Shown one piece after another: positions 49,797-60,905 of a stretch of 64,000 bases of DNA. Source of the stretch: Pseudomonas sp. B6002 (GTDB lineage Bacteria; Pseudomonadota; Gammaproteobacteria; Pseudomonadales; Pseudomonadaceae); NCBI RefSeq assembly GCF_013385985.1, contig NZ_JACAOY010000012.1, positions 474,064-538,063 on the forward strand. Direction: 5' to 3'. The position numbers and the translations under genes were made by a program. The notes below the pieces were generated by a model. The model saw only the letters and a program-made list of their open reading frames with translations, did no database searches and was not told the DNA's origin. Numbering within the stretch: the first letter of the stretch is position 1; every line of letters starts with the position of its first letter.

Positions 49797-51239
49797 TTAG
49801 ATGCCCAGGCAGAGGTATTTGATTTCCAGGTAGTCCTCGATCCCGTACTTGGACCCTTCACGGCCCAGGCCCGAAGCCTTGATGCCGCCGAACGGCGCCA
49901 CTTCGTTGGAGATCAACCCGGTATTCACGCCGACCATGCCGTATTCCAGGGCTTCCGCCACACGGAACACACGGCCCAGGTCGCGGGCATAGAAGTAGGA
50001 AGCCAGGCCAAACTCGGTGTCGTTGGACATCGCGATCACTTCGGCTTCGTCTTTGAAACGGAACAGCGGTGCCAGTGGGCCGAAGGTTTCTTCCTTCGCG
50101 ACAGCGGCATCTTTCGGCACGTTGGTGAGGATGGTCGGCTCGAAGAAATTGCCTTCCATCACCTTGCCACCGGCCAGCAGCGTGGCGCCTTTTTTCAGCG
50201 CGTCGGCGATGTGCTCCTGCACCTTGGCCACGGCTTTTTCGTCGATCAGCGGGCCAGTGGTGGTGCCTTCTTCCAGACCGTTGCCGATCTTGAGCTTGGC
50301 CACCGCAACCTTGAGCTTTTCAGCGAAGGCGTCGTACACCGAATCCTGGATGTACAGACGGTTGGCGCAGACGCAGGTCTGGCCGTTGTTGCGGTACTTG
50401 GAAATGATTGCGCCCTCGACAGCCTTATCCAGGTCGGCGTCGTCGAACACGATGAACGGCGCGTTGCCGCCCAGTTCCAGGGAGACTTTCTTGATGTCCT
50501 TGGCACATTCGGCCATCAGCTGGCGGCCGATTTCGGTCGAGCCGGTGAAGGACAACTTACGCACGATCGGGTTGCCTGTCAGCTCACCGCCGATGTCGCC
50601 GGCGCTGCCGGTCACCACGCTCAGCACGCCTTTCGGGATACCGGCACGGTGCGCCAGTTCAACCAGGGCCAGCGCCGAGAACGGGGTTTGCGAAGCCGGC
50701 TTGATGACCATGGTGCAACCGGCGGCCAGGGCCGGGCCGGCTTTACGGGTGATCATCGCAGCCGGGAAGTTCCATGGGGTGATGGCCGCGGTCACGCCGA
50801 TCGGCTGCTTGATCACGATCAGACGCTTGTCGGGCTGGTGGCCGGGGATCACGTCGCCGTAGATGCGCTTGGCTTCTTCGGCGAACCACTCGATGAAAGA
50901 GGCAGCGTAGGCAATTTCGCCCTTGGCTTCGGCCAGCGGCTTACCTTGTTCGAGGGTCATCAGGCGACCGAGGTCATCCTGGTTTTCGATCAGCAGTTCG
51001 AACCAACGGCGCAGCTTGTTGGCGCGCTCCTTGGCGGTCAGTGCACGCCAGGCCGGCAGGGCCTTGTCGGCGGCTTCGATGGCGCGGCGGGTTTCAGCGG
51101 CGCCCATCTTCGGCACGGTGCCGAGAATCTCACCTGTGGCAGGGTTGTTGACCTTGATGGTCTGGCCATTGTCCGCATCGACCCAAGCGCCATCGATAAA
51201 GGCTTGCTGGCGGAACAACTGGGCATCTTTAAGCTGCAT
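49797..51239 (-). CDS. gabD: Succinate-semialdehyde dehydrogenase GabD (NADP+)
   Basis: 480-residue aldehyde dehydrogenase from the ATG at 51239 (AAGGAAAG upstream). It has the nucleotide-binding region FTGSTEIGRQLM, catalytic Glu in LELGGNAPFIVFDDAD, and catalytic Cys in NNGQTCVCANR (two cysteines, as in GabD). It oxidises the GabT product to succinate, completing the GABA shunt into the TCA cycle. Confidence 0.94.
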   Translation of the reverse strand: MQLKDAQLFRQQAFIDGAWVDADNGQTIKVNNPATGEILGTVPKMGAAETRRAIEAADKALPAWRALTAKERANKLRRWFELLIENQDDLGRLMTLEQGKPLAEAKGEIAYAASFIEWFAEEAKRIYGDVIPGHQPDKRLIVIKQPIGVTAAITPWNFPAAMITRKAGPALAAGCTMVIKPASQTPFSALALVELAHRAGIPKGVLSVVTGSAGDIGGELTGNPIVRKLSFTGSTEIGRQLMAECAKDIKKVSLELGGNAPFIVFDDADLDKAVEGAIISKYRNNGQTCVCANRLYIQDSVYDAFAEKLKVAVAKLKIGNGLEEGTTTGPLIDEKAVAKVQEHIADALKKGATLLAGGKVMEGNFFEPTILTNVPKDAAVAKEETFGPLAPLFRFKDEAEVIAMSNDTEFGLASYFYARDLGRVFRVAEALEYGMVGVNTGLISNEVAPFGGIKASGLGREGSKYGIEDYLEIKYLCLGI

Positions 51240-51532: not shown

Positions 51533-51847
51533 TTACGACTGGAACGATTTGAGGATGGTCAACAGGCTGGTGAGGTTGTCGGCCACGCCGCCCTGGGCGA
51601 CTTTCTCGGTAGCGGCGGCACCCGCGGTGGTGTCGACGCTGTAGATCTGCATCACGCCCTGGTTGGTCGCGGCCTGGGCCAGGGTATTTTGCTGTTGCTG
51701 GGCCGACACCGCGTTCTGGAACAGAATCGCCGTGGCCTGGCCCATGGACTGATAAATCGTGCTCATGGCCATCGCTGGCGATTCGGCGACGACCTTGACG
51801 TTGGTCTGGGTGACGGCATCGGTGATTTGCTGACTGACTGCACTCAT
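51533..51847 (-). CDS. RebB-family R-body protein, copy 1
   Basis: 104 residues from the ATG at 51847 (AGGAG upstream). QITDAVTQTNVKVVAESPAMAMSTIYQSMGQ, then LFQNAVSAQQQQNTLAQAATNQGVMQIY is the RebB family signature. RebB proteins polymerise into R-bodies, ribbons rolled in the cytoplasm that can unroll into long tubes and were first known as the killing agent of Caedibacter. The downstream paralogue-to-be in transcription order is this one, and it is identical to copy 2 except for five residues, so the pair is a recent duplication or is kept alike by gene conversion. Last gene of the operon. Confidence 0.88.
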   Translation of the reverse strand: MSAVSQQITDAVTQTNVKVVAESPAMAMSTIYQSMGQATAILFQNAVSAQQQQNTLAQAATNQGVMQIYSVDTTAGAAATEKVAQGGVADNLTSLLTILKSFQS

Positions 51848-51897
51848 GGTTGGAACTCCTGGGTTGAGAAAGAACAACATCCGTTAGTGCTCAGGGA

Positions 51898-52212
51898 TCA
51901 AGACTGGAATGACTTGAGCACCGTCAGCAGGCTGGTGAGGTTGTCCGAGACACCGCCCTGGGCGACTTTCTCGGTAGCGGCGGCGCCGGCAGTGGTGTCG
52001 ACGCTGTAGATCTGCATCACGCCCTGGTTGGTCGCGGCCTGGGCCAGGGTATTTTGCTGCTGCTGCGCTGAAACGGCGTTCTGGAACAGGATCGCGGTGG
52101 CCTGGCCCATCGACTGGTAGATGGTGCTCATCGCCATCGCTGGCGATTCGGCCACCACTTTGACGTTGGTCTGGGTAACGGCGTCGGTAATTTGCTCGTT
52201 GACGAATGACAT
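51898..52212 (-). CDS. RebB-family R-body protein, copy 2
   Basis: 104 residues from the ATG at 52212 (AAGGAAA upstream). It differs from copy 1 only at residues 3, 5 and 6 and at two C-terminal positions (GGVSDN for GGVADN, LLTVLKS for LLTILKS). R-body assembly in Caedibacter and in Pseudomonas needs more than one Reb polypeptide; having two near-identical subunits could tune the ratio or the ribbon properties. 50 bases separate it from copy 1. Confidence 0.88.
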   Translation of the reverse strand: MSFVNEQITDAVTQTNVKVVAESPAMAMSTIYQSMGQATAILFQNAVSAQQQQNTLAQAATNQGVMQIYSVDTTAGAAATEKVAQGGVSDNLTSLLTVLKSFQS

Positions 52213-52294
52213 GGTCAATTTCCTTATTTAATACACGGCGCATTCCGTGTTCATGAATGAACGTTGTAAAACAATCGCTGTGAAGCCTTGCAGG

Positions 52295-52630
52295 CTAGGG
52301 TTTCGTCGCAGGGTCCAGGATCGCCTCGATCTGCACGATCAGCCCCTGGATCAGCGTCTGCACTTCCTGACGCTTGCGCGCGATCTGTGTCTCACTGTCC
52401 GCCACCGCGCCATCAAGCACCTGGCGCACCGCCGCTTCACGTTGCTCGGCGGCCACCCTTAACGCTTGCTCGTTGGCCTTGGACTGCTCAAGCACCAGGG
52501 CTGCACGCTTGAGCGTTTCATCCACGACGGCCTGGGGTGCGCCGGCGAAGGTTTGCGGGTTGCGAATCAACGCTTCTAGCCGCTGCCGATCGGCAGCGGA
52601 CAGTACCGGTGGTTGCATAGGGGGAGCCAT
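52295..52630 (-). CDS. Small coiled-coil protein of the R-body locus
   Basis: 111 residues from the ATG at 52630 with an ideal AGGAGG. I do not recognise a named family. A Pro-rich start (MAPPMQPPVLSAADRQRLEALIRNP) is followed by an almost continuous helix rich in Ala, Gln, Glu and Arg (about residues 40-105), which reads as a coiled coil, and it ends ILDPATKP. It has no signal peptide, membrane segment or enzyme motif. Its place between the peptidase-like gene and the rebB pair suggests an assembly or chaperone role; this is inference from context. Confidence 0.6.
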   Translation of the reverse strand: MAPPMQPPVLSAADRQRLEALIRNPQTFAGAPQAVVDETLKRAALVLEQSKANEQALRVAAEQREAAVRQVLDGAVADSETQIARKRQEVQTLIQGLIVQIEAILDPATKP

Positions 52631-52670
52631 GTGAACCTCCTGGTTCGATGCTTTACCGGCAACGGGGCCG

Positions 52671-53297
52671 CTAAAGCCGCACCTCGACGTTGTCTTGCCA
52701 GAAGCCGGCGAAGTAGAACAGTGATGAGGCATCGCAGAACGTCGCCAATTCTGCTGGCGTGATGGCTGAAGGCTGCTGATTGAAGATAGCCGACGGCGGT
52801 GGGACTAGATTGGCAGCGTTGTAAAGATTGCCCACTTCATAGCAGTTGGCTGCGAATTGTGAGCAAAACGAGCTACTGCCAATGTCGACCGACTCGTTGA
52901 TTCGCGTCACCAGATTGGTATCGGAACTCCAGCGCCGAAAAGCCGAGATCATGGCCGTCCACACGCTATAGCGACCGCGAATATCGCCGCCGATCTTGTC
53001 GAAGTAGAACTGCTTGGCGGCCAACGCGGCGGCTTCGCCCAATGCTTCGTCCACACAGGAAAAAACCATGGCCGAACGCGGAGGTTTTTCCAGGCTCAAA
53101 TCGGTCAAAGTCAGACCACTGCCGACACTTTCAATCACCAGTGTGTCACTCACCGCAATCGCAGGATGGACGACATTCAAGTAGCACGTGTCTTGGGAAA
53201 ACACCGTGGCCTTGACCAGTTGGCCAGCTTTGATAAATGCACGTGTGGCGCTGTCGTCGTCTTGTTTCACCGAGAAAATGATATCTCCAGGCTGCAT
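52671..53297 (-). CDS. Permuted NlpC/P60 (YiiX-like) cysteine-peptidase-fold protein of the R-body locus
   Basis: 208 residues from the ATG at 53297 (GAGGAG upstream; a GTG five codons earlier is less likely). The order of motifs is that of permuted papain-like NlpC/P60 proteins (YiiX/YebB type): PGDIIF at residues 3-8, His44 in VVHPAIAV, Glu56 in VIESVGSGL, and late Cys145 in SSSFCSQFAANCYE. Such proteins cut or transfer acyl/amide bonds in cell wall or lipids. It has no signal peptide, so it would act in the cytoplasm or be carried by the R-body. The assignment rests on motif order only; no search was possible. Confidence 0.55.
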   Translation of the reverse strand: MQPGDIIFSVKQDDDSATRAFIKAGQLVKATVFSQDTCYLNVVHPAIAVSDTLVIESVGSGLTLTDLSLEKPPRSAMVFSCVDEALGEAAALAAKQFYFDKIGGDIRGRYSVWTAMISAFRRWSSDTNLVTRINESVDIGSSSFCSQFAANCYEVGNLYNAANLVPPPSAIFNQQPSAITPAELATFCDASSLFYFAGFWQDNVEVRL

Positions 53298-53379
53298 GAT
53301 GTCGCTCCTCACTCAAGAAAAGTTACGTTCAGGTTGCTGTTGCCGCGTTCCAGAAGGGCTCTGGAACGTCGTGCTCGGT

Positions 53380-53952
53380 TCAGGCCGCTGGCGCAGCCCG
53401 GTTGGCCAAGGTGTCGGCGTACTTGGCGATGCTCTGGTCGATCTTGTCGATGGCCACACTGGCGGCCTCGGCCTCCATCGCCCCGGCAGCGGCAGCCACA
53501 GCGGCGGCGGCGCCCACCAGCAGATCGGTCGCCAGCGCACCCAGCGCATCCTCGGCAGCGGCCGGCAGGTTTTCCTTGACGATGTTTTCGGTCATTTGCT
53601 GGAGCAGCACGGCCTGGGCCGCCAACGCGATCTTGCTGACGCCGTCGAAATACCCCGCCGCCGACTGCGCCACCAACCCGGCGGCCTGGCTGATCATCAT
53701 GTCGGCGGGGACGGCGATCTGCGCCGGGGCATAGGCCACGTTCTGCGCATTGGTGAACTGCACGGCCTGCACAATCTGACTATTGAGCGCCGCAGTGCTG
53801 TCCGTGGAAGGCGTGCTGGCTTGGTTGAGCAAATGTTCGTTCATGCGCGCCATGACCGAGCGCGAAGGCGATGCCGCTGGAGCGGGTGCAGGGGTTTCGG
53901 CGGCGGGTGTTGCAGGTGCGGCAGCAGGTTTCTTCTTGCTGAACCATGACAT
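53380..53952 (-). CDS. Long RebB-family protein with N- and C-terminal extensions
   Basis: 190 residues; GGGGAG seven bases before the ATG. The first 35 residues are Lys/Ala/Pro-rich and disordered-looking (MSWFSKKKPAAAPATPAAET). A RebB-like helix pair follows (LNSQIVQAVQFTNAQNVAYAPAQ... AAGLVAQSAAGYFDGVSKIALAAQAVLLQQM). The C-terminal 75 residues are Ala-rich helices. The core is clearly related to the short Reb proteins but diverged (QFTNAQN in place of TQTNVK). It may be a scaffold, cap or nucleation subunit. Confidence 0.75.
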   Translation of the reverse strand: MSWFSKKKPAAAPATPAAETPAPAPAASPSRSVMARMNEHLLNQASTPSTDSTAALNSQIVQAVQFTNAQNVAYAPAQIAVPADMMISQAAGLVAQSAAGYFDGVSKIALAAQAVLLQQMTENIVKENLPAAAEDALGALATDLLVGAAAAVAAAAGAMEAEAASVAIDKIDQSIAKYADTLANRAAPAA

Positions 53953-53970
53953 GATCTGACTCCCCAGGGC

Positions 53971-54198
53971 TTAACCCTTCTCGCCAATCTGCATGATCAG
54001 CGCGACCGCCTTGGAGACCACCGCATTGGAGATCTGGTTCATGGCCTGCTGGCTGTTGACCGCATTCTGCAAGGACAAGCCCGCCGCGCTGCTGGCAACC
54101 TGGTACAGCGACGCGATGGCTTGGGCTGGCGCCTCCGCAACCACCTTGACGTTGGTTTGGGTGACCGCGTCGGTGATCTGACTGTTGACCTCTGTCAT
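53971..54198 (-). CDS. Short RebB-family protein
   Basis: 75 residues from the ATG at 54198 (AAGGAGAG upstream). Begins NSQITDAVTQTNVKVVAEAPAQAIASLYQ, matching the N-terminal half of the RebB copies almost exactly, but ends after LIMQIGEKG, lacking their C-terminal 35 residues. It is the first structural gene after the sigma factor gene. The different length suggests a distinct subunit, comparable to the multiple sizes of Reb proteins elsewhere. Confidence 0.83.
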   Translation of the reverse strand: MTEVNSQITDAVTQTNVKVVAEAPAQAIASLYQVASSAAGLSLQNAVNSQQAMNQISNAVVSKAVALIMQIGEKG

Positions 54199-54301
54199 AC
54201 ATCTCTCCTTGATGAAATGCACCCGGACATGGGCGTATTGAATGGCGGCGTGGTGTGCTCATAGAACTTGAACGCCCCCCGCCGACCGTTGTGAATAAAG
54301 T

Positions 54302-54844
54302 TCAGCGCAAGGCAATCCGCAGCAGTTGCACACGCTTGCGGACCAGCGGCAGTTTCACCTGCAACTCGGCAGCGATTTGCGGGTAAGGCAACTCATCCAC
54401 GAAACGCATTTCGAACAGGCGCTGCTGTGAAACCGGTAACTGCGCCAGGTGCGCCTCGATCCGTTCCAGGCGTTCGTAACATTCCACGCGCTCTAGCACC
54501 GAGGCACAGGGGGCGGCGAGTTCGGCCAGGTGATCGTGTTCAAGCACCACCGAATCATCGAACACTCGCCCCTCACGCTTACTGCGCCGCAGGCTGTCAA
54601 AGAACACGTGGTCGAGCACCAGGAACAGAAACCCCTGGGGATCGCGAATACGCTCCGGTGAACGCCGAAAAAACAGCAAGGCCTTGATGGCCGTCGCTGA
54701 CAGCCATTCCTGGCCCTGATCCTGATTGCCTTTAGCCCGGCGCAAGGCCCGGCGCTTGAGTTCCCCCTGTACCGAACGCCAACTCGCTTCGAACAACCGG
54801 TCGTCAGCCACGGCTGCTTTGTTCAACTCAAAAGTCATCCCCAT
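54302..54844 (-). CDS. RNA polymerase sigma factor (ECF-like) of the R-body locus
   Basis: 180 residues from the ATG at 54844 (GGGAG upstream; another ATG two codons on). A region-2-like helix set (ATAIKALLFFRRSPERIRDPQGFLFLVLDHVFFDSLRRSKREG) and region 4 (LERIEAHLAQLPVSQQRLFEMRFVDELPYPQIAAELQVKLPLVRKRVQ) are visible. No anti-sigma gene is adjacent. It lies directly upstream of the structural genes and probably transcribes them. The 103 bases to the next gene are the likely place for its target promoter. Confidence 0.82.
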   Translation of the reverse strand: MGMTFELNKAAVADDRLFEASWRSVQGELKRRALRRAKGNQDQGQEWLSATAIKALLFFRRSPERIRDPQGFLFLVLDHVFFDSLRRSKREGRVFDDSVVLEHDHLAELAAPCASVLERVECYERLERIEAHLAQLPVSQQRLFEMRFVDELPYPQIAAELQVKLPLVRKRVQLLRIALR

Positions 54845-54931
54845 CACGCGCACTCCCTTGCATTTTTGATGAAGGATCAGTCTGAGAGGATTCAACGAAG
54901 CAACGCTGTTACCTGGGGAACACAGCACCGA

Positions 54932-55627
54932 CTAATTCAACGAAAAAGCCTTGCGCCGCAGGTGGTCGAGGTCATTAATCACCATTCGCTCCAAGTTGCC
55001 GCTGATCAGGCCACTGCGGCGCCAAAGCTGCAGTTGCACGTTCAGTTTGGGGCGACTGGTGTTAAGCATGGACGCCAGCACTCCTTGGTTGGCCGGCAAG
55101 GACACGCTGGGCATGGCCAGGGCCAGGTCGATGTCATCCATGTTCGCCAGCAGAAAGCGCGCCAGCCGCGACTCCAGCCGATGCAGGCTCACCAGCTCCA
55201 GCAACTCGATGACATGCAGCAGCCGCATCATCATCAACATCAGCAGGCGCCGCAGAAATACCGGTTCCTCGAACAGCACAGCAAAATGCCGGCTGCCCAA
55301 TTGCAACATGCGCGTCTGGCCACTGGCGAAGGTCGACGATTCGCGCCCATGTCCCTTGATCAAGGCGGTCTCCCCCACGACCTGCCCGGCACCGACGCTG
55401 CCGATGATCTGCTCCCGACCATCAGGGCCCTGCATCACCGAATAAATCCGCCCCTCCACCACCAACGCGATGAATTCGAGGGTGTCGTCCTTGAAATAGA
55501 GCACTTCGCGATCATCCAGCGTGCGCTCCACCATATGGGTCGCGACGTGGTGCAACAGGTGTTCCGGCATACCCCGAAACAAATCGGAACGGGCCAGCAG
55601 GGCTTGTCGCAACGGGAGATCGAGCAT
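54932..55627 (-). CDS. Crp/Fnr-family regulator of the R-body locus
   Basis: 231 residues from the ATG at 55627 (AAAGGA six bases upstream). Cyclic-nucleotide-binding-like barrel (VLYFKDDTLEFIALVVEGRIYSVMQGPDGREQIIGSVGAGQVVGETALI), long dimer helix, and C-terminal HTH (LPANQGVLASMLNTSRPKLNVQLQLWRRSGLI). No Fnr cysteines near the start. It differs from the Crp-type protein at 36.5 kb. First gene of the cluster, 88 bases before the sigma gene; together they suggest two-step control of R-body production. Confidence 0.83.
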   Translation of the reverse strand: MLDLPLRQALLARSDLFRGMPEHLLHHVATHMVERTLDDREVLYFKDDTLEFIALVVEGRIYSVMQGPDGREQIIGSVGAGQVVGETALIKGHGRESSTFASGQTRMLQLGSRHFAVLFEEPVFLRRLLMLMMMRLLHVIELLELVSLHRLESRLARFLLANMDDIDLALAMPSVSLPANQGVLASMLNTSRPKLNVQLQLWRRSGLISGNLERMVINDLDHLRRKAFSLN

Positions 55628-55797
55628 CACGGTTCCTTTGGAATGCATGCGTTCACCTGGTCTGACGGGAAAATGCTGCGCGCACGGCGCAGAGAGGTGC
55701 TTTAAAGCCAACGGGGCAAAGCAAACAAAGGGACGTCCGGCCGGCGGACTTGTGAATGCATGGAAAACGCCAGCATTGGCGACAAAAAACACCGGCG

Positions 55798-55839: not shown

Positions 55840-55916
55840 GCATCCGTAGCTCAGCTGGATAGAGTACTGCCCTCCGAAGGCAGGGGTCGTGGGTTCGAAT
55901 CCCGCCGGGTGCACCA
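55840..55916 (+). tRNA. tRNA-Arg (anticodon CCG)
   Basis: A 77-base cloverleaf: acceptor stem GCATCCG / CGGGTGC (one T-G pair), D-loop AGCTCAGCTGGATAGAG, anticodon stem CTGCC / GGCAG with loop CTCCGAA (anticodon CCG at 55874-55876), T-loop GGTTCGAATC, and encoded CCA end. It reads CGG codons. tRNA-Arg genes often serve as integration sites; no integrase or duplicated 3' end was seen here. Confidence 0.97.
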
Positions 55917-55973: not shown

Positions 55974-56567
55974 TCACCGCTTCTGCAATGCCTCCAACCT
56001 TGCCGGCAAATCCTCCCCAGGGAAGCGCTCATGCAGCGCCAGCAGCTTCTCATCCGCCGCCCTCGCCTGCCCTGCTTCACGCAGTCTCATAATTTCCCGC
56101 AAACCCTCCTCCAACGAAGGCAACGCCACCGGCGCGCGTTTGCTAAGCCTGGCGCTGGACTCATCCGCCATCGAGCCCATGACTTGTGCACTGTCGGCCT
56201 TGGGTGCAACGGCAAGGCGTGCCACGGGCGCAGGGGCGGACATCGGGGGCGGCGCCGGGCGGGCGGCTTCTTCGTGGAGCGCAGAGAAGGTCGCCGTGGA
56301 GATTTCCGGCTGTGGCACGGGCGAGCGCATCACCACGCCGATCATCAGCGCCAAGCCCGCCACAGTGGCGAATGCCATCTGCCAGCGCGGGCGTTGGCAA
56401 GCCTGCAGCCAGCGCTGCCACAGGTTCGGCTGTGGGGCCGGGGCTTCGCGGCGGGCGGTGGCGAGGATGAAGGCGTCGAGGGACGCAGGCGGTTCGCCGG
56501 TGCTGTGTTGACGATAGTGCTGGAGCAGCACGTCGTCGGGGTCCGGGGTGTGTCGGGAGTCGGTCAT
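55974..56567 (-). CDS. Probable anti-sigma factor, single-span membrane protein
   Basis: 197 residues: a cytoplasmic N-terminus of about 60 residues ([31 protein letters not shown]), one membrane helix ([17 protein letters not shown]), then a Pro/Ala-rich periplasmic stretch and a C-terminal helical unit ([39 protein letters not shown]). It overlaps the ECF sigma gene by four bases (ATGA), the usual sign of a cognate anti-sigma. No zinc-binding HxxxCxxC motif is present. Confidence 0.7.
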
Positions 56568-57136
56568 GCGGATATCTCCTCGGCCAGCAGGCGGCGCAGT
56601 TTCTGCTGGGCGTAACGCAGGCGGCTTTTTACGGTTTCCAGCGGGGCATTGGTGAGCGCGGCGATTTGCGGCACTTCGAGGTCGCCGTGCAGGCGCAGCA
56701 GGAAGACTTCTCGCTGGTCTTCGGGCAAGTCTTGCAGGGCAGCGTTGAGGCGCGCCTGGTCGCGACTCAAGCTGAGTTGCTGCTCGGGGCCGGCACTGTC
56801 GTCGGCCTGGGCATGCAGTTGCTCGTCGTAGCTGTCGTGCAAAGGATTGTGAATGCCGTGCTTGCGCCAGTAGTCGATCAGGCGGTTGCGGGCAATCTGG
56901 AACAACCAGGTGCGAAAGCTCGCCCTGCCCTGTGGCTGGGTATTGCTGCGGATCAGGCTGAGCCAGGTCTCCTGGTAGATTTCCTCGGCCAGTTCGGCTT
57001 TGTTGCTCAGGGACACCAGGAACCGGTACAAGCTCTGGCGATGCCGCGCGTACAGAACCTCGAACGCGGCCCCCTCACCGGTTCGGTAGCGGGCCAGCAG
57101 CGCTTCATCGCTGGGTGAATCGTCTGGGACGGCCAT
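56564..57136 (-). CDS. ECF RNA polymerase sigma factor
   Basis: 190 residues. Region 2 (FEVLYARHRQSLYRFLVSLSNKAELAEEIYQETWLSLI... FRTWLFQIARNRLIDYWRK) and region 4 (LNAALQDLPEDQREVFLLRLHGDLEVPQIAALTNAPLETVKSRLRYAQQKLR) are textbook ECF. It forms an operon with the membrane anti-sigma protein and sits next to a von Willebrand lipoprotein gene that may be its target. AAGGAG lies 12 bases before the ATG. Confidence 0.9.
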   Translation of the reverse strand: MAVPDDSPSDEALLARYRTGEGAAFEVLYARHRQSLYRFLVSLSNKAELAEEIYQETWLSLIRSNTQPQGRASFRTWLFQIARNRLIDYWRKHGIHNPLHDSYDEQLHAQADDSAGPEQQLSLSRDQARLNAALQDLPEDQREVFLLRLHGDLEVPQIAALTNAPLETVKSRLRYAQQKLRRLLAEEISA

Positions 57137-57166
57137 GCGGGTGGCGAACTCCTTTCGGTATTCCTT

Positions 57167-57254
57167 CTAGGAGCCGGCTTGCCGGCGATTGCGGTGTGTC
57201 GGGTGACGCATGCGCCACAGAGAGTCCGCTATCGCCGGCAAGCCGGCTCCTACA
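57167..57254. repeat. REP doublet
   Basis: Inverted TCTAGGAGCCGGCTTGCCGG and CCGGCAAGCCGGCTCCTACA units. It lies between the vWA lipoprotein gene (20 bases past its stop) and the ECF sigma gene. Confidence 0.9.
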
Positions 57255-57274
57255 GGTGGGCGGTGTGGTGGAAA

Positions 57275-58927
57275 TCAGTGTTTGAGGGCCAGGGCCATTT
57301 CGACCAGTTGCACGAATTCGTTGCGCAGGCCAAAGGGGTCATCGCCCCGGGCCGAGCGTGCCAGTGCGGCCGTGTCACTCAAACTCATGGACCCAGTGTA
57401 GCGGCCATCGCCCTTGAGCTGTTGGGCAAAGGCGGCCACGGCCGCCGAGAAGCGCAGGTCGTCGCTGGCCTTGTTTGATGCGTTGCTGATCGGGCGCTTG
57501 ATCAAGCGGCTCTCGCCCCCCGCAGCGGGCTTGTAGCGCACGCGCAACATGGCCAGTTCAGCGGAGTTGCCTGCCAACGAGGGCTCACTGGCGTAGCGCA
57601 ATGGTTCTATCCAGCCTCTCTTGCCCTTCGGCACGATTTCGTACAGCGCAGTTACCGTATGCCCTGCGCCGATTTCACCGGCGTCGACCTTGTCGTTGTT
57701 GAAATCCTCACGCTTGAGCGCACGGTTTTCATAGCCGAGCAAACGGTACTCGCTGACCTGGGCCGGGTTGAACTCCACCTGCAACTTCACGTCCCGCGCG
57801 ACGATCGCCAGGGTCGAGCTGAGCTGGTCCACCAGCACCTTGCGGGCTTCGCGCAGGTTGTCGATATACGCATAGTTGCCATCGCCTGCATCGGCCAGCT
57901 GTTCCATCAGGTGCTCGTTGTAGTTATCCACACCAAACCCCAGGGTGGTGAGGGAGACACCACTTTTGCGCTGGTCCACGGCCATCTGCTTGAGGCTGTC
58001 GAAGTCGCTGACACCCACATTGAAGTCACCGTCGGTCGCCAGCAGAATGCGGTTGATACCCTTGTCGATAAAGCCTTCGCGGGCCATCTGGTAGGCCAGT
58101 TCAATACCCGAGGCCCCTGCGGTGGAGCCGCCTGCGGTGAGCTGGTCGATGACATTGCGGATTTTCGCCTTGTCGCGGCCGGAAGTAGGCTTGAGCACCA
58201 CGCGCGACTCACCGGCGTACACCACCAGCGACACATGGTCTTGCTCACGCAGTTGATCCACCAGCAACTTCAAGGTGCTTTTCACCAGCGGCAGGCCTTC
58301 CGGGCGGTCCATGGAACCGGACACGTCCACCAGGAACACCAGGTTGGCCGGCGCCAGCTGCGCCACGGCGCGGTCGGACGCCTTGATGCCGATGCGCAGC
58401 AATTGCGTGTCTGGATTCCACGGCGTGGCCACCACCTCGGTGGTCACGCCAAAGGGTGAGCCATCCGTGGGCAACGCGTAGCTGTAGGGGAAGTAGTTGA
58501 CCATTTCTTCCAATCGCACGGCACCGTCAGGCGGCAAACGGCCTCCGTTGAGGAATCGTCGCACGTTGGCGTAGCTGCCGGTGTCGACGTCGACACTGAA
58601 GGTCGAGACCGGTGTCTCGACCACGCGGTGCACCGGGTTGTCCGGCAGGTTGGCGTATTGCTCACGGGGTTCGCTGCGGTACGCCATTGCCGTCGAGTCT
58701 TGCTCCATCAACCGCGCAGTTATCGGGGCTGGCAGCGCCATGCGTTTGACCAGTGCGCCCTGCGCAGGCTCGCTGTTCAACTCGGAAAGGGGCGCTGCGA
58801 CGGTGGCTAATTCAGGCTTGGCCTCCTCGCGGGAAGAAGAGAGCCCGCACCCGGCAAGGGCGAGCAACGAGACGACGGCAAAGCCCTGGAAGAAAGGGCG
58901 CAGGTACAGTTTGGGAAGAGAAAACAT
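57275..58927 (-). CDS. von Willebrand factor type A lipoprotein (YfbK-like)
   Basis: 550 residues with lipobox LALAGC (Cys27). An N-terminal vWF-type domain (TFSVDVDTGSYANVRRFLNGGRLPPDGAVRLEEMVNYFPYSY) precedes the vWA domain, whose MIDAS DVSGS starts at residue 201 (LVFLVDVSGSMDRPEG) with Thr and Asp partners (ATDGDFNVGVSDF). A DUF3520-type C-terminal domain follows (LGYENRALKREDFNNDKVDAGEIGAGHTVTALYEI). The order is that of E. coli YfbK, whose function is unknown. Same strand and upstream of the ECF sigma/anti-sigma pair, separated by a REP doublet. Confidence 0.87.
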   Translation of the reverse strand: MFSLPKLYLRPFFQGFAVVSLLALAGCGLSSSREEAKPELATVAAPLSELNSEPAQGALVKRMALPAPITARLMEQDSTAMAYRSEPREQYANLPDNPVHRVVETPVSTFSVDVDTGSYANVRRFLNGGRLPPDGAVRLEEMVNYFPYSYALPTDGSPFGVTTEVVATPWNPDTQLLRIGIKASDRAVAQLAPANLVFLVDVSGSMDRPEGLPLVKSTLKLLVDQLREQDHVSLVVYAGESRVVLKPTSGRDKAKIRNVIDQLTAGGSTAGASGIELAYQMAREGFIDKGINRILLATDGDFNVGVSDFDSLKQMAVDQRKSGVSLTTLGFGVDNYNEHLMEQLADAGDGNYAYIDNLREARKVLVDQLSSTLAIVARDVKLQVEFNPAQVSEYRLLGYENRALKREDFNNDKVDAGEIGAGHTVTALYEIVPKGKRGWIEPLRYASEPSLAGNSAELAMLRVRYKPAAGGESRLIKRPISNASNKASDDLRFSAAVAAFAQQLKGDGRYTGSMSLSDTAALARSARGDDPFGLRNEFVQLVEMALALKH

Positions 58928-59348: not shown

Positions 59349-60905
59349 ATGAGAATACCGCCTGGATCCGCCGGATTCGTTATGCCGTTCGTCCGCCCTT
59401 CGAGACCACAGCACTTCTTCCAACCCTTCAATTTGCCCATGATTTTTCGCCCGTTTATACAACCCTTCATCAGCCATCCATTCCTGAGGCCTTTCATCCA
59501 ACCCCTTTTTCGCCCAATGCTCAGTCCAGATCACCAGCCCCTGACACGTGATTACGCCGACCACGCCCTAAATTTGGATAAGCCTACGGAACGCACCCGG
59601 GATGGGCAGGACCCGACCCGGCGCCCGGACGACCCTTATGTCTCCAAGGTAAACAAGCGCGCCTTCAACGAACAACAACGCGTCACACAACTCATCCGGG
59701 GTATCCCAAAATGGCAAGATCGAAATAAAAACAACGTCACTGAAATTGCCTATTCATTCAATAACGTCGGATTCAACGAAACACAGAAACGCGAGGCACG
59801 GCGTTCGATAGAGTCCTGGAGCGACGTGGCCAACCTGGCATTCACCGAAAATGGAGGCGCAGCCGAAGGCCGGCTGACATTTGGCATCTCGCCTTTTATC
59901 CCCACCGCAAACGCTACCTTCCCAACGCCCAACGGACATGGAGGTGGCGACACCGTCTATAACCCGTTCAGGGTCAGTCGCATCATCATGACCCATGAAA
60001 TAGGTCATGCCCTCGGGCTCCGTCACCCCGGCGACTATGACGGCCACGCAACCGAAAACCAGCGCGTCTATGCGCAAGACTCCACGGCCCACACGGTCAT
60101 GAGCTACTTCTATGATCGCAGCAGTGGCAAGACCCTGGGCGCCAAACCCAAGGCGCCCATGATGGATGATATCGCGGCCATCCAGAAGCATTACGGTGCC
60201 AACCATCGAACCCGCAAGGAAGACAATACCTACGGCTTCAATTCAAACACGCGAAGGGACTATTACACGTTGAAATCCGCGCAGGACCGCTTCGTCGCCT
60301 GCATATGGGACGGGGCGGGCAACGACACCCTGGACTTTTCCGGCTACCGCTCCAACCAGACCCTCAACCTTAAGGAGGGTTCGTTTTCCGACGTAGGCGG
60401 CCTGCAAGGCAACCTTTCGATTGCCAGAGGCTGCACGATCGAAAACGCCCTAGGTGGCTCCGGCCACGACGCGTTGATTGGTAATACGGCCGATAACCGG
60501 CTCACTGGCAACGGCGGTTCGGACCAACTACGCGGTGGCGACGGTGCTGATACGTTTGTCTACAACCACGCCAGCGACTCTACGCCCGATCAGCCCGACA
60601 CCTTGATGGACTTCACTACCGGCACCGACAAGATCGATATCAGCGCTGCCATGCAACAAGCCAATACGCCAGCATTGGTCTTTACCCAAACCTTCAGTGG
60701 CAAGGCCGGTGAAAGCGTTCTTGCGTATGACGAAAAAACCGGGCGCGGCAGCGTTTCCATCGACCTCTCGGGCAACGGTCGCGCCGACCTGCTGATCAAC
60801 ACCCACGGGCGGGTCAACCCCGAAGACTTCGTCCAGGCCAAGCTTCGCCCGCCATTACCGCAGAGCAGTTATCGCCTCAGAAGGCCGTGGTTACGAACAC
60901 GTTGA
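59349..60905 (+). CDS. Serralysin-type RTX metalloprotease (M10B) with Pro/Phe-rich N-terminus
   Basis: 518 residues. The zinc site HEIGHALGLRHP (216-227) and Met-turn SYF (Met251 in MSYFYDRSSG) are those of serralysins such as AprA, followed by a beta-roll region (about 365-405) with only a few GGxGxD-type repeats. The first 65 residues are unlike family members: near-repeats of RPFIQPF/HPFLRPF. The C-terminus ends in a basic tail (LRRPWLRTR) instead of the usual DxxV-type secretion end. Cys318 and Cys362 are unusual in a class normally free of cysteine. No aprDEF-type secretion or inhibitor gene is adjacent. The start is uncertain (weak RBS; later ATGs at 59382 and 59439). Confidence 0.83.
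   Translation: MRIPPGSAGFVMPFVRPSRPQHFFQPFNLPMIFRPFIQPFISHPFLRPFIQPLFRPMLSPDHQPLTRDYADHALNLDKPTERTRDGQDPTRRPDDPYVSKVNKRAFNEQQRVTQLIRGIPKWQDRNKNNVTEIAYSFNNVGFNETQKREARRSIESWSDVANLAFTENGGAAEGRLTFGISPFIPTANATFPTPNGHGGGDTVYNPFRVSRIIMTHEIGHALGLRHPGDYDGHATENQRVYAQDSTAHTVMSYFYDRSSGKTLGAKPKAPMMDDIAAIQKHYGANHRTRKEDNTYGFNSNTRRDYYTLKSAQDRFVACIWDGAGNDTLDFSGYRSNQTLNLKEGSFSDVGGLQGNLSIARGCTIENALGGSGHDALIGNTADNRLTGNGGSDQLRGGDGADTFVYNHASDSTPDQPDTLMDFTTGTDKIDISAAMQQANTPALVFTQTFSGKAGESVLAYDEKTGRGSVSIDLSGNGRADLLINTHGRVNPEDFVQAKLRPPLPQSSYRLRRPWLRTR

Follow-up and report, generated by a model that had tools for sequence, protein, structure and literature searches.

R-bodies are known as bursting ribbons, and their killing agent and the rarity of the producer cells are questions on which the present cluster offers leads. 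In Pseudomonas aeruginosa PA14, R-bodies of the reb cluster (rcgA, fecI2, rebD, rapA and rebP1P2) were isolated and imaged, and the same work covers their regulation, their host effects and the association of RapA with the R-body (PMC8322103). In liquid culture, 0.26% of the cells had an active rebP1 reporter, and its expression required both RcgA and FecI2 (PMC8322103). Furthermore, the synteny described for group 2 reb loci comprises two hypothetical proteins, HP2.1 and HP2.2, the sigma factor HP2.3 and the cyclic-nucleotide-binding regulator HP2.4 (PMC3583457), and a 2026 survey, in its part on Reb groups, placed RapA in the secondary group S4, with non-Reb neighbours set aside (PMC13430693). 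Here we analysed 64,000 nt of DNA from Pseudomonas sp. B6002 (the window), which carries a reb cluster at 51533-55627 on the minus strand. Its genes make it very likely that this is a complete Pseudomonas-type R-body cluster driven by a sigma factor and a Crp-type regulator, from which we infer that the strain can build R-bodies. Two leads on the above questions are a common promoter element, which if true would belong to a self-reinforcing sigma switch, and a putative enzyme gene that was swapped alone between clusters of related bacteria.

The reb cluster and its chromosomal site

The cluster consists of eight open frames on one strand, which encode, in order, the Crp-type regulator, the sigma factor, RebD, RapA, a C92-like protein, a putative coiled coil, RebP1 and RebP2. 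This order, already given in a preliminary description made from the sequence, recurs identically in other Pseudomonas genomes, indicating that the cluster is not a product of chance. RebD (75 aa, 53971-54198), RebP1 (104 aa, 51898-52212) and RebP2 (104 aa, 51533-51847), all on the minus strand like every gene of the cluster, scored 91.8, 97.1 and 97.2 bits against the RebB family (PF11747, cut-off 24 bits), so that both 104-residue proteins pass far above the cut-off in the hidden Markov model check proposed for them earlier. RapA (190 aa, 53380-53952) failed as a PF11747 member and had no Pfam match at all; in profile-profile comparison it showed a weak likeness to RebD (probability 64.7, E 6e-5, one comparison), versus probabilities of 0.1-2.2 for five other targets, among which RebP1 gave the 2.2. 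Of the four RebB-type proteins first described, three thus stand, and the "long Reb" is a weak relative: as far as sequence tells, the locus holds three clear RebB proteins and one diverged relative, RapA. The names rapA, rcgA and fecI2 follow the published accounts by family, synteny and size rather than a comparison with the PA14 sequences. A RebB search of the B6002 genome returned three matches, all in the reb cluster, and 0 of 14 control genomes was positive. Since rebD, two rebP genes, rapA, the sigma factor and the Crp-type regulator, the set that defines group 2 here, are all found together, 51533-55627 is on its gene content a complete Pseudomonas-type (group 2) reb cluster, a type that is already known. 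RebP1 and RebP2 are 95.2% identical in the window versus 90-93% in the 13 other clusters of its clade (see below), and this higher paralogue identity makes a recent gene conversion of rebP1 and rebP2 (51533-52212, minus strand) possible.

RebB was detected in 29 of 399 sampled Pseudomonas genomes, that of B6002 included. The eight-gene set occurs in the same order in 12 of the 29 (split over contigs L056 and L057 in G206), and seven have the sigma gene and a coiled-coil homologue without the C92-like gene, six of them also without rcgA; reduced sets at the same site are rebD-rapA-rebP in four genomes and rebP alone in six. All 29 carry their reb genes between gabD, encoding succinate-semialdehyde dehydrogenase (49797-51239, minus strand; NF008415, 1019.6 bits), and a tRNA-Arg(ccg) identified by sequence match (55840-55916, plus strand), for which at least 90% identity was required at the island site; in G206 the two edges lie on separate contigs. 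The distance from tRNA-Arg to the gabD start is 4,601 bases in the window versus 349-444 bases in 10 of 12 reb-less genomes, and the other two have no tRNA within the 1.5 kb examined. Neither gabD nor tRNA-Arg flanks the two Burkholderia clusters. Judging from these neighbourhoods, the sampled Pseudomonas either carry the cluster at this one site or lack it, and scattered insertion is not the pattern; descent with loss, or exchange through recombination in the flanks, may lie behind it. The constant site bears on how clusters come and go, at least in that sample.

At the gabD/tRNA-Arg site of L038, L039, L047, L059, L060 and L061, a lone rebP was found with no other reb gene detected; these loci are remnants or a minimal form. 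In addition, rapA appears as two overlapping frames in L037:7830-8469 and L045:8495-9185, owing to a frameshift or a sequencing error. A phage origin was rejected, with no match of RebP1 in 50,697 phage records, as was a plasmid origin, with no match of the C92-like protein, the only query used, in 72,556 plasmid records, and anti-phage defence, for which PADLOC gave a weak match (E 0.00066) confined to the nucleotide-binding part of the regulator. In open-licence PubMed Central, supplements excluded, we found no paper on reb and gabD with R-bodies, and PMC8322103 was the sole paper found on rcgA with R-body.

Regulators and a common promoter-like element

The Crp-type regulator (rcgA-type, Crp/Fnr; 231 aa, 54932-55627) matched the Pfam families cNMP_binding (48.5 bits) and HTH_Crp_2 (46.2 bits), both over cut-off, and the fecI2-type sigma factor, which resembles extracytoplasmic function (ECF) sigma factors (180 aa, 54302-54844), matched Sigma70_r4_2 over cut-off (38.7 bits). 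Its region-2 domain was not recognised by Pfam, and it reached 38.9 bits over residues 28-179 against TIGR02937 (cut-off 42.9). The dedicated sigma and Crp-type regulators of the preliminary description are thereby upheld, the former through region 4 only.

The aligned leaders of rebD and rebP1 have TTCACA-N15-CGTTC in common (54270-54295 and 52259-52284), and TTCACA-N15-CGTCC lies 5' of rcgA (55731-55756), all on the minus strand. When this element was sought within 250 bases upstream of gene starts, with T or C as the last two letters, it was found 5' of both rebD and rebP1 in all 19 sigma-bearing genomes (one rebD copy ends in CGTTT) and, in the CGTCC form, 5' of rcgA in 13 of 13 genomes having that gene. 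It was retained 5' of rebD and rebP1 in all six sigma-bearing genomes without an rcgA orthologue, and found in none of 11 sigma-less reb loci (10 genomes). Since the element thus tracks the sigma gene and not rcgA, we read it as a putative promoter, probably that of the FecI2-type sigma factor, and the case for it rests on conservation across genomes. In both Burkholderia clusters it occurs 5' of rcgA only.

The rcgA orthologue is missing from those six genomes in that the best matches have 25-28% identity, versus 27 and 28% in two reb-less genomes. The strong conservation of the regulators alongside rebP that is stated in the literature therefore needs qualifying. Six Pseudomonas reb clusters, L041-L046, have the sigma gene directly beside tRNA-Arg and both reb promoter elements, and lack rcgA.

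The B6002 genome contains six TTCACA-N15-CGTYC sites, three of them within the reb cluster, and one site of the reversed-pattern control; in other genomes the reversed control is at times as frequent as the pattern, so that single sites there mean little. Two of the three sites outside the cluster are probably chance occurrences, because they lie inside reading frames resembling real genes (by eye, urease-subunit-like in L119 and phage-like in L122); the L122 site has an identical copy in G099 and one with two substitutions in G108, a pattern expected of coding sequence. The remaining one, TTCACA-N15-CGTCC at L154:1501-1526 (contig C34), stands beside a frame that is LysR-like by eye, and its letters, spacer included, match in G350 except for the Y position; it is a possible extra target of the sigma factor.

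The rebP1 leader also contains the palindrome ACACGG-N6-CCGTGT (52233-52250, minus strand), 8 bases past the -10-like block. Exact copies lie 5' of rebP1 in all 19 sampled sigma-bearing genomes and in 16 of 17 Pseudomonas loci of the named genome collection (not in L063), many genomes being common to both sets. As RNA it would form a 6-bp stem with a 6-nt loop, a hairpin that is not exceptional (z -1.61; 12 of 200 shuffles fold as well), and the Burkholderia variant in L081 differs by one compensatory outer pair, the sole compensatory difference. Because of this single pair and the ordinary folding energy, we do not take the palindrome to prove an RNA structure; it could serve as an operator or, alternatively, make the 5' end of an abundant mRNA more stable. 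A-N-GGA is the Rsm motif, and such motifs in the leaders would fit Rsm control. In P. fluorescens SS101, an rsmYZ mutant showed rebB_1 and rebB_2 down by >44- and >93-fold in the data given (PMC4353343), and on such published grounds Rsm control of the reb genes is likely. In strain Pf-5, two reb genes are listed as modestly up under iron limitation (log2 0.91-1.31; PMC3377617).

Several points weigh against a complete R-body cluster under sigma and Crp-type control. R-body production by B6002 is a prediction from its genes. In the window by itself, with one mismatch allowed, three elements were found versus 1.1 expected, and 13 of 100 shuffles reach three, so that the number is not significant. 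The primary FecI2 regulon of PA14 is given as 28 genes (PMC4362757), which exceeds one cluster, so that either the pattern as written demands too much or B6002 has a smaller regulon. In the six rcgA-less clusters the element is missing 5' of fecI2, and hence neither the need for two regulators nor a feedback loop is general. Could the element be the binding site of the Crp-type regulator rather than a sigma promoter? TTCACA contains TCACA, which we take to be half of a CRP site, and both regulators are present in 13 of the 19 sigma-bearing clusters; however, the persistence of the element in six genomes without rcgA and its absence where fecI2 is absent make this quite unlikely, its two blocks do not form an inverted repeat, and the 15-base spacing between them presumably suits an ECF -35/-10 pair. 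We also consider it unlikely that the cluster, intact in sequence, is silent or decaying and that B6002 makes no R-bodies. Decay or reduction does happen, as the partial sets at the same site in 10 of the 29 genomes (four rebD-rapA-rebP, six rebP alone) indicate, but all eight frames are open in the window, the regulatory elements are conserved, and the responses in SS101 and Pf-5 suggest that such genes are expressed in relatives. A complete cluster with a sigma-dependent promoter thus remains the reading that we prefer.

The C92-like gene and its exchange

The 208-aa protein encoded between rapA and the coiled-coil gene (52671-53297, minus strand) failed by score as a member of Peptidase_C92 (PF05708), with 12.5 bits versus a cut-off of 27, and nine of 17 family members matched PF05708 at E up to 1 (best 0.0038). 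In hhalign, a profile of the 17 sequences matched an alignment of YiiX, YaeF and their relatives with a probability of 94.4 (E 8.5e-8, one comparison), limited to the N-terminal GDIIF...His...E-S/A-x-G part, and a broader C92 alignment with a probability of 74.7 (columns 46-157, the His and Cys columns inside this range), whereas five decoys from other families of the reb cluster gave at most 4.4. His44, Glu56 and Cys145 are invariant in all 17 aligned rows, which include two from Burkholderia and reach as low as 51% identity, and the motifs follow the permuted papain order with conserved His and Cys (the Cys motif by eye). The earlier label "peptidase-like" thus fails at the Pfam cut-off and gains support from profile comparison with C92: the protein appears to work like C92 enzymes, although we do not file it under PF05708, and it is probably a papain-like enzyme. 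No solved structure matched by sequence, the best hit being an unrelated Kelch protein (E 0.8), and the start, MQPGDIIFSV, does not look like a signal peptide by eye. Homologues were found at 19 loci of the named genome collection (17 Pseudomonas, two Burkholderia), with reb genes alongside in all 19. The genus-wide search found the gene in 12 of 399 Pseudomonas genomes, all 12 among the 29 RebB-bearing ones, and a phylum-wide search gave 2 of 398, namely B6002 itself and a weak match with two internal stops (E 7.6e-4), taken as noise. The literature search delimited above yielded no paper that combines a papain-like enzyme with R-body and reb.

We then compared the C92-like gene with its neighbours on trees of 19 Pseudomonas clusters (the window, L040, L055 and L063-L079 minus L070), with Burkholderia L080 and L081 as outgroup in the C92 tree only; the incomplete L070 as well as L048-L054, L056 and L058 were excluded, among them L049, which does not duplicate another locus and carries a type-B C92 gene. 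As the RebP model also matches RebD, identities were compared with these genes separated. The window gene is of type A, which forms the starred group of the C92 tree (11 of the 19 Pseudomonas rows), and the remaining types are called B; the eight type-B rows are not one clade when rooted with Burkholderia, L074 and L075 standing nearer to type A with weak support (80/66). On the tree of the six flanking proteins, type-B L055, L077 and L078 fall within a clade together with the 11 type-A clusters (98/96), L077 as sister of L073 (100/99) and L055 and L078 in moderately supported positions (bootstrap 84-91). Keeping the eight type-B rows apart from the 11 type-A rows on this tree was rejected (log-likelihood 155 lower, p-AU 1.4e-9), a p-value that is weakened because the groups were defined after the identities were seen. 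The C92 type changes at least four times on the flank tree. In the clade of 14 clusters, the C92 proteins of same-type pairs (58) are 90.3% identical and those of different-type pairs (33) 58.8%, while the seven other genes show no such gap; they average >90% identity between types, the coiled coil (~75%) excepted. The DNA of L055 and L058, compared in 150-base windows, is 88-99% identical from rcgA through rapA, 53-63% over the C92 gene, 70 and 85% across the coiled-coil start and 91-99% beyond; over the C92 gene, L055 is 80-89% identical to L052. By these comparisons, the C92-like gene was exchanged alone, with its neighbours left in place, three times on the best tree.

The neighbouring gene encodes a small, fast-evolving protein (111 aa, putative coiled coil; 52295-52630, minus strand) that reached no Pfam cut-off, and each of the 19 sigma-bearing genomes has a homologue between rapA and rebP1. 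The two genes are adjacent and both variable, which would suit a cognate pair such as a toxin and its immunity protein. This is very unlikely, since coiled-coil identity is equal whether C92 types agree (75.4%) or differ (74.9%), the coiled-coil length class changes once on the flank tree versus four changes of C92 type, and seven genomes have a coiled-coil homologue but no C92 gene. Exchange of the C92 types did not involve the coiled coil, which argues against an obligate pair, and a toxin-immunity pair was set aside as unsupported. A C92-like protein that is degenerate and has a structural or regulatory role, with no catalytic activity, would fit the score below the Pfam cut-off and the lack of a solved structure matched by sequence; the invariance of His44, Glu56 and Cys145 in all 17 rows, down to 51% identity, leaves this doubtful. 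Most likely, the C92-like protein serves the R-body system as an accessory enzyme, which would modify R-body proteins or be released with them. Its constant association with reb genes and its exchange suggest that the enzyme matters on the target side, and single-cassette exchange is expected if the protein meets a changing target in grazers or hosts; ribbon modification explains the reb company equally well. We offer only tentatively, as a possibility, that it is a variable enzymatic cargo or an R-body-modifying papain-fold enzyme, retained solely next to reb genes and exchanged as one cassette. If true, the C92-like protein would be a candidate killing factor of R-body systems.

Proposed mechanism and comparison with known systems

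In the proposed mechanism, the sigma factor would recognise TTCACA-N15-CGT(T/C)C and, with the Crp-type regulator, drive rebD-rapA-C92-coiled coil and, separately, rebP1-rebP2. The same element 5' of rcgA-fecI2 would give positive feedback and hence two-state expression, so that a rare self-reinforcing switch may turn the cluster on. Such a switch feeding back on itself would account for the rare, all-or-none expression described for PA14, and the stochastic control suggested in the preliminary description agrees with the rarity of rebP1 expression there (PMC8322103). RebP1 and RebP2 would then polymerise into the ribbon, with RapA associated, and the ribbon may extend once a grazer or host cell has taken up the bacterium, as proposed for PA14. 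The C92-like protein would act as an accessory enzyme by R-body modification or co-release.

Outside the cluster, a 518-aa frame on the plus strand (59349-60905) has a HEIGHALGLRHP zinc-protease motif, RTX-like glycine-rich repeats and a local GC dip (0.51); from these motifs we take it to resemble a secreted serralysin-type protease. Beside the tRNA, the minus-strand region 55974-58927 holds, by eye, a second sigma-like gene (56564-57136), a possible anti-sigma gene (55974-56567) and a gene for a 550-aa von Willebrand-type protein.

Finally, we compared the cluster with known systems. P. aeruginosa PA14 has, by its published description, the same core of two regulators, rebD, rapA and two rebP genes (PMC8322103), so that the likeness to the P. 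aeruginosa cluster claimed at the outset holds in gene order and content. The window differs in the C92-like and coiled-coil genes between rapA and rebP1, PA14 being known here by description only, and according to PMC8322103 conservation of PA14_27650, 27660 and 27675 does not extend to other pseudomonads. Caedibacter taeniospiralis rebABCD has in common the RebB-family structural proteins and a RebD relative (PMC8322103). Unlike that locus, as outlined in PMC3583457, the window shows no rebC, and has the sigma and Crp-type regulators, rapA and the C92-like gene instead; the accessory genes do differ from rebABCD, as first noted, in the way already described for group 2 (PMC3583457). YiiX/YaeF of Peptidase_C92 (PF05708) have, by eye, the same motif order, GDI(I/L)F, His, E-(S/A)-x-G and (F/Y)CS(Q/E), whereas the window protein stays under the Pfam cut-off and was found solely beside reb genes in the genomes examined. 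The group 2 synteny of PMC3583457, with two proteins of ~205-220 aa, a sigma factor and a Crp-type regulator around the reb genes, is matched here, and by size only RapA and the C92-like protein are probably its two hypothetical proteins. These are given no putative conserved domains in the account of PMC3583457, whereas a C92-like motif set was found here for one of them.

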